Source: Candidatus Saccharimonadota bacterium
GTDB taxonomy: Bacteria; Patescibacteriota; Saccharimonadia; Saccharimonadales; Saccharimonadaceae
DNA length: 64,000 nucleotides
Reading direction: 5' to 3'
NCBI GenBank assembly: GCA_017556795.1
Contig: JAFYLZ010000004.1
Location: 248,001 to 312,000, forward strand
The notes under the pieces were generated by a model, which was given only the letters and a program-made list of their open reading frames with translations, had not been told where the DNA came from and did not search any database. Below, piece by piece: positions 1,371-7,818 of the stretch (its first letter is position 1; each line of letters begins with the position of its first letter). Made by a program: the position numbers and the translations under genes.

Positions 1371-4300
1371 TTAGAACTCCTCTCCGAGGTCGACTGTGCC
1401 GTCGTCCTCTTCTTCTATTATTTCCATACCTTCTTCATCCAGAGCGGCTTCTTCCTCGGCGTCAAGGTCGATAATCTCTGGTTCGGTATCTTTCTTGTGT
1501 TGATCGTAAATCGATTGGTCATCCTTAGCGTGTTCAATCTCGCGTGAGGTCTTTTCGATTACGTCGCCAGCATCCGTAGCTTCGCCGTGGTCGAGGAGGT
1601 CGACTTTAAGGCCGAGACCTTGAAGTTCTTTCACAAGCACGTTAAAGCCTTCTGGAAGCTTTGGACCTTCGATTGGTTCACGTTTAATGATTGATTCGTA
1701 GGCCTTAGCACGACCGTAGACGTCATCAGACTTAATGGTGAGCATTTCCTGAAGCGTGGTAGCAGCACCGTAAGCTTCGAGGGCCCACACCTCCATTTCA
1801 CCGAAGCGCTGACCACCGTTCTGGGCTTTACCACCGAGTGGCTGTTGAGTAACCATGGTGTAAGGACCGGTTGAACGAGCGTGGATCTTGTCTTCGACCA
1901 TGTGGTGAAGTTTGAGCATGTGCATCACACCGACTGAGGTGCGTTCTTCGAATGGTTCACCAGTGAGACCGTCGAAGAGTTGGACACGACCATCGCGGTC
2001 GAAGCCGGCTTTCTCGAGCTCATCGCTGATTTTTTCATCTGGGACACCGTTAAAGGATGGGGTTGCGACCTTGTAACCAAGAGCGCGAGCAGCCATACCA
2101 AGGTGAGTCTCAAAGAGCTGACCGAGGTTCATACGGGAAGGCACACCCATTGGCGAAAGCACTACATCGATTGGAGTACCGTCAGCCATGAATGGCATAT
2201 CTTCTACTGGGAGAACGCGGGAGACCACACCTTTGTTACCGTGGCGACCTGCAAGCTTATCACCGACGCCGATTTTGCGCATTTCAGCGACGAAGATCTT
2301 GATTTGCATGAGCACACCAGCTTTGAGTTCGTGGCCCTGTTCACGGGTGTAAACGCGGACGTCGACAACTTTACCAGTTGATGAACCGTTCATACGAACT
2401 GAAGTATCGCGGACGTCTTTGGCTTTTTCACCGAAGATAGCACGGAGGAGTCGCTCCTCTGAGCTAAGTTCCTGTTCACCCTTTGGCGTAATTTTACCAA
2501 CGAGGATATCACCAGGAGCAACTTCGGAACCAACGGTCACGATACCATCTTCGCCGAGGTGGCGGAGAGAGTGTTCAGAAACGTTTGGAATATCACGAGT
2601 GACTTGTTCTGGACCAAGTTTGGTTTCGCGAACTTCTACGTCGAAGTCTTTGATGTTGATAGAAGTCAAAGTATCATCTTCGACTAGGCGGTTAGAAATG
2701 ACGATAGCATCATCCATGTTGTAACCACGCCATGGCATGAAGGCAACGAGAAGGTCGCGGCCGAGAGCGAGTTCATTATCATTGATAGATGCACCCTCGA
2801 TGATGACGTCGCCTTTTTTGACCTTTTGACCACGAGCTACGCGGCAGTGTTGGTTGTAACAACGGTCATCATTGGTCTTTTCGAAGTGAACGAGTTTGTA
2901 TTCTTTGTCACCACCTTTATCGTAAGTAACAATAACAGATTCGCCGTCGGCTTTCTTCACGACACCGGCGCCTTCGGCAAAGACGACCTGTGAAGTGTTC
3001 TTAGCGACTTCACGCTCAATACCAGTACCAACGATTGGGTTATCGGTTTTGAGTAGTGGGACTGCCTGTTTCTGCATGGCGCAGGCCATGAGAGAGCGGT
3101 CAACACGGTTTTTCTCGACAAATGGAATCAAGCTAGCTGAAACACCGAGAATTTCCTTGTGGGCAGCATCGATATGAGTAACGTTCTTTGACTCGACCTG
3201 GGCTGGCGCGCCGTGGACGCGAGCAGAGACCCATTCCTCAACGAATTTACCATTTTTATCCAATTTAACAGATGCGTCAGCGATAATCATATCGTTTTCA
3301 GCAGCAGCGTCAACGTAGACAACTTCATCAGTAACTTTGCCGTTTTTAACGACGCGGTATGGCGCTTCGATGAAGCCATATTCGTTAATGCGAGCATAAG
3401 TTGCAAGGTTAAGCACGAGACCGACGTTACCACCTTCTGGGGTTTCAACGGTACAGATGCGGCCGTAGTGGGTCGGGTGGGCGTCACGGACATCGAAGCC
3501 GGCACGTTCACGGGTAAGACCACCAGGGCCCATCGAGCTTAGACGACGCTTGTGAGCGAGTTCTGAGAATGGGTTGGTTTCATCCATCAACTGGCTGAGC
3601 TGTGAGCTAGCGAAGAACTCTTTAACGGCAGCCACGACTGGGCGAGAGTTAAGGAGTTGAGACGGAGTAACTTCTTCTGGGTTAGCCATCGACATACGGT
3701 CGAGGATGTTGCGCTGGAGGCGAAGCATACCAAGACGGAATTGACGTTGGACAAGCTCACCGACCAATTTAACGCGGCGGTTAGCGAGAGAGTCGATATC
3801 GTCGGCTGGCTCCTGGGTGTTGTTAAGGCGAATGATTTCAGCAACGATTGCAATCAAATCTTCCATTTGGAGGGTGCGATGTGCGGAATCGTTTGGCGTA
3901 TCAAAGCCAAGACGGCTGTTGATCTTGAAGCGGCCAACATTGCTGTAGTCGTAACGCTTTGGATCGAAGAAAGTACGTTCAATCATAGATTTTGCGTTCT
4001 CGACCGTAGCGAGATCACCTGGGCGAAGACGGCGGTAGACTTCGAGCAAGGCTTCACCTTGAGTAGAGGTGGTGTCTTTTTCGAAAGTTGAATCAATGTA
4101 GTTGATTTCACCGGTATCGACTTGTTCGAATTTGCTCTTAATATCAGATTTGGTCATGCCAAGAGCGCGCATGAAGGTCGTGACTGGAACTTTGCGGCGG
4201 CGATCAATTTTGACGTTGATCGAACCGTTAGCGGCAGTCTCGAACTCGAGCCAAGCACCACGGCCAGGAATTACCTTAGCGCCGTAGTAGTTGCGAAGAC

Positions 4301-6107: not shown

Positions 6108-6164
6108 GATTTCTCCTTTAATTTAATATTGCCCTATTATACACTATTTTCCAAAAAAAGAAAA

Positions 6165-6185
6165 GCCCCAAGCGTTGCTCGGGGC
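6165..6185 (-). terminator. intrinsic terminator after the 6196-6699 gene
   Basis: GCCCC-GAGC-aac-GCTT-GGGGC forms a short strong hairpin followed by a T-rich run on the minus strand, immediately upstream of the rpsP promoter. Confidence 0.85.
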
Positions 6186-6195
6186 GTGAGAGTTA

Positions 6196-6699
6196 TTATT
6201 TGACAGCATAGTCTAGGTCGTAAAATCCGTAGAATACGCCTTCTGCTCTCTTTTTCTTCATGAAATTTTGATGCCTTTTGCGACAATGCTCATCTAGCCA
6301 GCGATAAGTTAGCTTTTTGACAAGATAGCCTTTTCCGTCTTTGTAAAAGACTTCGTTGAACTTAGCTATCTCCTTCTTTTGCTTGCTTTTCAATCTTTCG
6401 AGCCGTTCCCAGCCGTCCGCATGGACGATTATTCCATGTGATTGCAGAAAACGCTCGCCGATATGGGTATCCACATTGCGGAGAGCCCACCAAAGACGAT
6501 CAATGAAAGCCGCCCGGTTCATTAACTTTTCGAGCCAATTGTAATACTCGTCTAGTTCCAAACCGGTTGGTTCATTCTTCGCTTTGACGGGGTCGATTTT
6601 CGCGTTAACTTCATCCTCATTATCGTAGTCATGATGATAGCTCGTACGCGGATCGTCCCTCTCCTCAAAGGCAAAATCATTGTAATCTTCGTATGCCAT
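6196..6699 (-). CDS. orphan protein, 167 aa
   Basis: I do not recognise this protein. It is hydrophilic and has no signal peptide or membrane segment. The N-terminus is acidic and aromatic (DYNDFAFEERDD). The middle is helical with NWLEKLMNRAAFIDRLWWALR, and the C-terminus is basic (RWLDEHCRKRHQNFMKKKRAE). It has its own TATAAT promoter, a GGGGG-type Shine-Dalgarno and its own terminator. In size and transcription-unit style it resembles the orphan genes at 43-44 kb and 54-63 kb, but I see no motif shared with the P, Q or R families. Confidence 0.7.
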   Translation of the reverse strand: MAYEDYNDFAFEERDDPRTSYHHDYDNEDEVNAKIDPVKAKNEPTGLELDEYYNWLEKLMNRAAFIDRLWWALRNVDTHIGERFLQSHGIIVHADGWERLERLKSKQKKEIAKFNEVFYKDGKGYLVKKLTYRWLDEHCRKRHQNFMKKKRAEGVFYGFYDLDYAVK

Positions 6700-6774
6700 A
6701 TACTCGCCCCCTTTTCAGTATTCTAGTCGTATAGCATATCTTTTGATTATATCATATTTTTATTTTTTGGTCAA

Positions 6775-7051
6775 TAAAAAAGGGGTCATTGACCCCTGTA
6801 AAAACCATAGTACCCCCCGCCCGAACGAGGGGGCGGGAGATAAGGTAAGTGAGGCTATCAATCTGCCATCATTGATAGCCCCTGCGGGCTCTAATTAACA
6901 AGGATTGTGTGTATTCGGCTGACTATCCTGTCCGGAGTTTGTGCTATCTGTCTAGGTATATATGAAAGAATAGAGGTTTTGGTCCTAAGAACTTGTTGGC
7001 AGACTTGTTAATTAGCGGTGCTCGATTGACCATACAAAAAGATCAATCGCT
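6775..7051 (-). ncRNA. candidate structured RNA, about 280 nt, family not recognised
   Basis: The promoter is close to ideal (-35 TTGCAA at 7081-7086, 17-bp spacer, -10 TATAAT at 7058-7063). The transcript starts with a 7-bp hairpin (CGATTGA/TCAATCG). A perfect 12-bp long-range stem follows (CTAATTAACAAG, plus-strand positions 6891-6902 and 7004-7015) enclosing about 100 nt. Then come hairpins GGCTATCA/TGATAGCC and CCCGCCC/GGGCGGG, and an intrinsic terminator AGGGGTCA/TGACCCCT plus T6 at 6781-6797. No plausible ORF spans it. I see no tmRNA T-arm, RNase P P4 sequence or SRP GGAA loop. It explains the 390-bp gap before rnc. Confidence 0.68.
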
Positions 7052-7095
7052 GGCGTCATTATAATACTTTTTTGCGATTTTTGCAAGTCTAAAGA

Positions 7096-7818
7096 TTATT
7101 TTGCGGTTTTGGCGGCCTTTTCGGCGGCTTTGTAGCTCTTGACGCCCTCTTTAGCGGCGGCAGTTTGGGCTTCTTGCTTAGAGTGGCCAACACCGGTGCC
7201 CTTGAGTTCGTCGGCGACGTAGACACCTACAGTAAAGCTTTTGTCGTGGTCTGGTCCCTCTTCTTTGAGGGTGCGATAAACCGGAGTAACACCAGCGTTT
7301 TTCTGGGCGAGTTCTTGGAAGTAGGACTTTGGATCGCGCCAAGATTCATCCTCGAGAATCTCGTCGATTTTGTTCAAAATATGCTTATAAATGAAATCCT
7401 TGGCGGTTTCGTAGCCTTGGTCTAGGTAAATTGCGCCAATTACGGCTTCAAAACAGTCTGCGAGAATCACATCGTGAGCGCGCTCAGAACCGTGCTTTTC
7501 GCCCTTGGAAAGGCGCACGAGTGGCTCGTAGCCGAGCTCTTTGCCGGCAGCACCAATCGATTCGGTACGCACAAGGGCGGCACGCCAAGAGGTCATGATA
7601 CCTTCGGGCTCATTGTAGTTGCGATACAAAAAATCCGAAGAAACCATCTCTAGAATGGCGTCGCCGAGAAACTCTAGGCGCTCATTATGGTCATGCACGC
7701 TGGCTTTGTGCTCATTCACATAGCTACGGTGGGTTAGCGCGGTGACGAGTAGATCAATATCCTTAAATTCGAAGCCTAATTTGGCTTTCGCAAACTCCTG
7801 ATATGGGGTTTTATCCAT
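7096..7818 (-). CDS. rnc: ribonuclease III
   Basis: This double-strand-specific endoribonuclease processes rRNA precursors. The signature NERLEFLGDAILEMV lies at residues 45-59, with metal ligands E46, E49, D53 and a second acidic pair D121/E124 in DCFEAVIGAIYLDQG. A double-stranded RNA-binding domain spans about 165-233 (DPKSYFQELAQKN...SKQEAQTAAAKEG). The 240-aa length is typical. It is the last gene of the rpmF-nusB-nudix-rnc unit, 12 bp after the Nudix stop. Confidence 0.96.
   Translation of the reverse strand: MDKTPYQEFAKAKLGFEFKDIDLLVTALTHRSYVNEHKASVHDHNERLEFLGDAILEMVSSDFLYRNYNEPEGIMTSWRAALVRTESIGAAGKELGYEPLVRLSKGEKHGSERAHDVILADCFEAVIGAIYLDQGYETAKDFIYKHILNKIDEILEDESWRDPKSYFQELAQKNAGVTPVYRTLKEEGPDHDKSFTVGVYVADELKGTGVGHSKQEAQTAAAKEGVKSYKAAEKAAKTAK

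Follow-up and report, generated by a model that had tools for sequence, protein, structure and literature searches.

A predicted structured noncoding RNA next to rnc in three related species of Saccharibacteria

Orphan structured noncoding RNAs of bacteria known from comparative genomics, such as the motif sets of PMC2864571 and PMC8040213, are encoded in intergenic regions, carry their own expression signals, form covarying helices, and have no assigned function. The RNA described herein shares these characteristics, but it differs from such motif sets in being restricted to three species. As far as a term search shows, PMC8040213 does not refer to Saccharibacteria, TM7, Patescibacteria, candidate phyla, or rumen, and a 2024 review (PMC11665869), searched in the same way, names riboswitches solely as a tool for the future and does not bring up small or noncoding RNA. 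Likewise, our literature search found nothing on structured RNA of Saccharibacteria. It seems that the noncoding RNAs of Patescibacteria have hardly been described.

Two known systems also invite comparison. CsrB is a protein-sequestering RNA, and CsrB-like RNAs suggest one possible mode of action for the RNA examined here, wherein hairpins titrate a protein. However, the repeated GGA hairpin motif of those RNAs is not evident by eye. The hallmark of 6S RNA is a long rod with a central bubble, and that of SRP RNA is the SRP hairpin. Our RNA resembles 6S RNA (RF00013) in being an independent structured RNA of comparable size, but it gives no match to the 6S model, shows no such rod in its fold, and is not conserved across the genus.

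The RNA lies in a 64,000-nucleotide stretch of DNA (hereafter the window) from a 0.67-Mb genome, G000, in which a sequence-only reading had proposed a housekeeping RNA beside rnc, the gene for RNase III. Related copies reside in two sister species, G087 and G154.

Gene order and transcription signals

On the minus strand of the window, the gene order is rnc, the RNA, an orphan gene, rpsP, khpA, and rpoB (Table 1), the gene names being based on sequence recognition and synteny. The location between an orphan gene and rnc is thus as originally described. The promoter, for which no strand had been given, and the terminator are also present, both on the minus strand. Matches to promoters of the TTGCAA-17-TATAAT type occur at a rate near chance (2 found versus 1.1 expected in shuffled sequences). 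However, the RNA promoter carries weight because it is conserved in place in both sister species, with a spacer of 17 bp in G087 and 16 bp in G154, and in all three copies it begins 7 to 9 nt past the rnc stop codon. The G087 RNA has a terminator hairpin whose stem differs from that of G000. A clear terminator was not found for the G154 RNA, and a promoter-like TTGTTT-17-TATAAT element is seen by eye ahead of the next gene in that species. No open reading frame is common to the three RNA copies, and ARAGORN reported neither tRNA nor tmRNA in the window.

Table 1. Positions of the RNA, its predicted elements, and the flanking genes in the window
Feature	Position	Strand	Remarks
rnc (RNase III)	7096..7818	minus	Upstream neighbor of the RNA in all three species; named by sequence recognition and synteny
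RNA promoter TTGCAA, 17 bp, TATAAT	7058..7086	minus	10 of 12 consensus matches
Predicted noncoding transcript, ~275 nt	6776..7052	minus	Start inferred ~7 nt past the -10 box
P1 hairpin CGAUUGAUC / GGUCAAUCG	7023..7049	minus	9 pairs, one G-U
P2 long-range helix, 5′ arm CUAAUUAACAAG	7004..7015	minus	Perfect 12 bp with 6902-6891
UCUGCCA directly 3′ of the P2 5′ arm	6997..7003	minus	Proposed kissing partner of the P3 loop
P2 long-range helix, 3′ arm CUUGUUAAUUAG	6891..6902	minus	Pairs with 7015-7004; 101 nt enclosed
P3 hairpin	6851..6882	minus	12 pairs, one G-U; loop contains UGGCAGA (6868-6862)
P4 G+C-rich hairpin	6811..6842	minus	12 pairs, two G-U; conserved UUACC in front
Intrinsic terminator AGGGGUCAAUGACCCCU-UUUUU	6776..6797	minus	At the 3′ end of the RNA
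Orphan gene P0002	6196..6699	minus	Downstream of the RNA in G000; own promoter-like site 6774-6746

Given that the RNA follows directly after rnc in all three species, with no terminator seen between the two and read-through therefore possible, the helices might simply form a structured 3′ end of the rnc mRNA. Such helices would protect the message or allow self-control by RNase III, and the internal promoter would yield only a by-product. Control of its own mRNA by RNase III is known from other bacteria, which counts in favor of this interpretation. However, the promoter is kept in all three copies, and rnc occurs without the RNA in most of the genus. Moreover, efficient cleavage by RNase III is usually quoted as involving ~20 bp, and the helices of this RNA, which span 8 to 14 bp, are short by that measure. 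The same lengths bear on the suggestion in the sequence-only reading that RNase III could process the stems. We consider it unlikely that the RNA is merely the end of the rnc message.

The possibility that the RNA is a cis-regulatory leader was also considered and rejected, since the downstream genes are unlike in the three copies: the orphan gene in G000, rpsP in G087, and a gene for a surface-type protein in G154. Nor is the RNA simply a leader of the orphan gene, because this gene has its own promoter-like site and is absent in G087, where P0002 was not matched in the slot after the RNA. The orphan protein itself gave no match in Pfam, NCBIfam, or PADLOC. Its N-terminal sequence FEERDDPRT resembles those of otherwise different proteins from the slot, such as FEERDDARTT in G066 and EENDDPRTW in L025. 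The surface-type protein of G154 (L034 from position 1644; L038) comprises at least 872 amino acids with repeated leucine-rich-like units, as judged by eye.

Fold of the RNA and changes among three copies

The minus strand has a folding energy of -85.4 kcal/mol (z = -3.98), and none of 200 shuffled sequences was equally low. The plus strand stands out much less from its shuffles (z = -1.88, with 8 of 200 equally low), and the two homologs, which have a matching layout, yield z values of -5.20 and -5.46. As stated in PMC8250186, the fold of one sequence is no evidence, and covariation must be distinguished from independent phylogenetic change.

All three copies exhibit the layout P1, P2, P3, P4. 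The perfect 12-bp stem that had been read as enclosing about 100 nt is indeed found and is called P2 herein. The additional hairpins noted at the outset are likewise present, but they are perfect only if the G-U pairs in P1, P3, and P4 (Table 1) are allowed. The 5′ strand of P1 includes the constant sequence CGAUUGA in the three copies, and its loop is highly variable in length. Conserved unpaired letters include the UUACC ahead of P4, again in all copies.

The arms of P2 are CUAAUUAACAAG/CUUGUUAAUUAG in G000, AUCGAAUUAGUGAG/CUCACUAAUUUGAU in G087, and AUCGGCCA/UGGCCGAU in G154. With the register anchored on the adjacent CUGCC block, as chosen by the analyst, the inner eight pairs of this helix are formed in 24 of 24 cells over the three copies, and two-sided changes are observed in seven of the eight. 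When one arm is slid by 1 to 3 positions as a control, at most 9 cells are paired and at most one pair carries two-sided changes. Anchored stems as long as those observed were produced by 0, 0, and 19 of 2000 dinucleotide shuffles of the three copies, with 0 of 2000 for G000.

For P3 and P4, an alignment (A5) that was fitted to the structure of covariance model R1, and whose counts lean toward that structure, has 95.5% of its cells paired, a value matched by 1 of 500 shuffles. In P3, 5 of 10 counted pairs show two-sided changes in G154, and in P4 such changes are found in 2 of 12 pairs, with three outer pairs left unformed in G154; all covariation counts reported here come from three sequences, too few to separate covariation from independent phylogenetic change.

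The CUGCC(A) sequence beside P2 is complementary to (U)GGCAG of the P3 loop over 7, 6, and 6 nt in the three copies. In shuffled sequences, this complementarity arose in 42 (the 7-nt case of G000), 270, and 16 of 20000 trials. Because CUGCC and GGCAG are invariant, covariation gives no support to a kissing contact between them.

As shown by comparison of the three copies, P2 through P4, and less clearly P1, have been maintained through compensatory changes. A search of related genomes for the long stem and for covariation, which had been suggested with the sequence-only reading, thus yielded copies from two sister species. Because P2 has been rewritten in them yet still pairs, P3 and P4 covary, and CUGCC and GGCAG are kept, we are highly confident that the locus encodes a real structured noncoding RNA.

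Distribution, age, and relation to known RNA classes

When the RNA was used as a DNA BLAST query against 60 genomes (59 of them relatives), its own copy alone was matched. With RNase III as the query, 76 of 80 genus genomes were matched, and the sequence that follows rnc was read in the 30 best loci. The RNase III of the window is 73 to 96% identical over the best segment to that of 80 loci, nearly all labeled Saccharibacteria and many from ruminant gut samples, with Ca. Nanosyncoccus alces included. The gap between rnc and rpsP in G087, a genome with an RNase III of 94% identity, has no orphan gene and carries a related RNA. Covariance model R1, built from two sequences of the 3′ domain, matched 4 of 174 genus genomes at E ≤ 0.1, which revealed the third copy in G154 (L038; isolate RGIG6031 from sheep omasum). 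The fourth match, in G167 (31.9 bits with the three-sequence model described next), was called false; it overlaps the end of a 498-amino-acid open reading frame and the terminator of that frame.

The three-sequence model, R2, matched 15 of the 174 genus genomes at E ≤ 1, of which G000, G087, and G154 were accepted. Among the loci fetched for the other weak matches of this model in the genus and the order (24 bits or less), the seven best alignments look like G+C-rich terminator hairpins or chance pairings. The RNA is therefore found in three of 174 genus genomes, as one copy per genome and in a single clade. Across the order, R2 gave 10 matches at E ≤ 0.1 among 392 sampled genomes, with G000 alone accepted and no convincing new copy, and with G087 and G154 absent from the genomes that had a match in this search. 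Among the 80 named rnc loci, only L038 carries the RNA, and L081 has a weak match of 21.6 bits. Of the long gaps after rnc in these loci, that of L107 is a surface-protein frame and seven others are without the RNA layout, each as judged by eye.

The claim that the RNA belongs to no recognized family was examined with Rfam 15. At gathering thresholds, there are 0 matches in the whole window and 0 in the homolog loci L033 and L034. Even at E ≤ 10, matches in the region are far below threshold, the best reaching 19.6 bits against a cut-off of 51.4. The locus thus matches no Rfam model for tmRNA, RNase P, SRP, or 6S RNA, in agreement with the initial failure to recognize any of these. The only match to RNase P RNA (RF00010) in the genome is located at G000:C1:16977-17302 on another contig (225.7 bits), and an above-cut-off copy of tmRNA (RF00023) is at G000:C1:13547-13902. 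RNase P RNA was found in all five genomes searched (G000, G087, G154, G066, and G001). No above-cut-off copy of 6S RNA (RF00013) and no match to SRP RNA (RF00169, RF01854) was found in any of these five.

Since neither 6S nor SRP RNA is accounted for in five genomes of the genus, G000 included, one might propose that the RNA is a very diverged form of either. However, G066 and G001 are without a match to SRP or 6S RNA and also without this RNA, a housekeeping RNA would be expected in far more than 3 of 174 species, and the predicted fold resembles neither the long, bubble-bearing rod of 6S RNA nor the hairpin of SRP RNA. We judge this explanation to be extremely unlikely. Indeed, the RNA cannot replace 6S or SRP RNA because nearly the whole genus lacks it. 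The proposed housekeeping role is rejected on this same distribution, with RNase P RNA and tmRNA encoded elsewhere. The RNA matches no catalogued family and is probably young rather than a housekeeping RNA.

In a tree of NUDIX and RNase III proteins (83 rows), the three RNA-bearing species form one clade with support of 100/99, and the same-group members L036, L037, and G066 have the slot without the RNA. The third codon positions of rnc are 57 to 58% identical among the three species, and the first and second positions are 96 to 98% identical. In the 5′ domain of the RNA, none of the three pairwise alignments is better than the best one obtained from 100 simple shuffles. So the RNA body appears to change at approximately the pace of third codon positions while pairing persists. 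Because the third positions of rnc are only 57 to 58% identical, the rewriting of P2 can be viewed as ordinary divergence filtered by structure. An exceptional speed of rewriting was also considered and dropped, as the rate need not exceed neutral change. Identity in the 3′ domain is 97% for G000 and G087, 67% for G000 and G154, and 64% for G087 and G154. Given that G087 and G154 are sisters in the tree, this suggests either exchange between the first two species or a burst of change in G154.

The slot, which corresponds to window positions 6108-7095 and to the gaps between rnc and rpsP in L036 through L115, is a turnover hotspot. Of 80 loci, rpsP was located in 72, and in these the gap measures between 32 and 2179 nt. 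Its small open reading frames mostly have their own promoters, as judged by eye, and 49 of 83 fall in one similarity cluster. In another species, a ~25-bp hairpin unrelated to the RNA lies directly after rnc (L083, ~3720-3820; the same region as L031).

Because the slot turns over so quickly in length and in small open reading frames, the RNA could be a remnant or cargo of a mobile element that once served a protein now missing. This explanation seems very unlikely to us, given that there is one copy per genome, that BLAST searches of phage and plasmid sequences gave no match to the RNA, and that structure and promoter are maintained despite ~58% identity at rnc third positions. Among viral contigs, a 17-mer is shared by five and a looser pattern by two, with one contig in both sets, and these were rejected when R1 matched 0 of 5 and R2 matched 0 of 6. 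Viral contig L116 shares an exact 20-mer, TTACCTTATCTCCCGCCCCC, at 645-664 as the loop and arm of a different hairpin; it has no model match and is taken as chance.

Possible modes of action and a second RNA nearby

Whether the RNA acts through its fold or through exposed sequence is a question on which the comparisons bear. We favor the former because the helices persist in a sequence that can otherwise vary almost throughout, and because the constant unpaired blocks are few and short. Specifically, we speculate that a kissing contact between the CUGCC next to P2 and the loop of P3 holds these two helices against each other, which would create a compact core. The RNA would then act in trans by virtue of its folded form, most probably within a small ribonucleoprotein or by binding and sequestering a protein. 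As part of this explanation, the RNA gene would have originated or been acquired a single time, between rnc and rpsP, in a small clade of rumen Saccharibacteria within the genus group of Ca. Nanosyncoccus. The place, promoter, and layout shared with G087 and G154, together with the differing downstream genes, argue for an autonomous gene of this type, and the outer P4 pairs and clear terminator missing in G154 argue against it. Taken as a whole, the proposal of an autonomous gene whose RNA works in trans by means of its fold, probably bound to protein, is one that we consider evenly balanced between right and wrong.

A different possibility is that the RNA is a trans-acting antisense small RNA, in which a structured scaffold presents a short stretch of exposed sequence for pairing with target mRNAs. 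Such a stretch could be the linker ACUUACCUUAUC ahead of P4 or one of the variable P1 and P2 loops. An independent promoter and an intrinsic terminator are typical of such RNAs, the UUACC ahead of P4 is constant in the three copies, and an antisense seed would also fit the 97% identity of the 3′ domain between two of the three copies. However, the linker outside UUACC is altered in G154, where it is partly absorbed by P4, and what is common to all three copies is structure rather than a long unpaired seed. We regard antisense pairing as a somewhat improbable mode of action.

The RNA might even be the first example of a new class of compact RNAs that are locked by a kissing loop, and it might form a lineage-specific ribonucleoprotein in host-dependent, ultrasmall bacteria, with its gene located in a gene-turnover hotspot beside rnc. 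We offer this broader proposal tentatively, and it is rather doubtful. Identification of a protein partner would add to the significance of the RNA. With helices that remain traceable across three sister species although almost all of the sequence has been replaced, it also provides a test case for the origin of structured RNAs in reduced genomes.

A second uncatalogued RNA of ~100 nt, with its own promoter and terminator, occupies the khpA-rpoB gap on the minus strand (window positions ~5057-4960). Its sequence includes AAGCUAACUAACUGCGAGUYGGCUU...GUUGAGAGCUUAUCUAUG..., and no convincing Rfam match was obtained for it. A pattern scan of the window and the 80 loci located 67 places, 52 of which are between khpA and rpoB. 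The core AAGCUC...UGCGAGC...GUUGAGAGCUU recurs with variation in 20 copies from the genus, family, and order. Covariance model R3 of this RNA matched 140 of 392 order genomes at E ≤ 0.001, with one match per genome except for G078, which has two, both at contig starts. Within the genus, 82 genomes have the RNA versus 6 that are listed without it. As noted above, SRP and 6S RNA are unaccounted for in the five genomes searched. This distribution is that of a housekeeping RNA or a leader, which makes the khpA-rpoB RNA a candidate for a lineage-wide housekeeping RNA or an rpoB leader. It is probably more important than the RNA adjacent to rnc.
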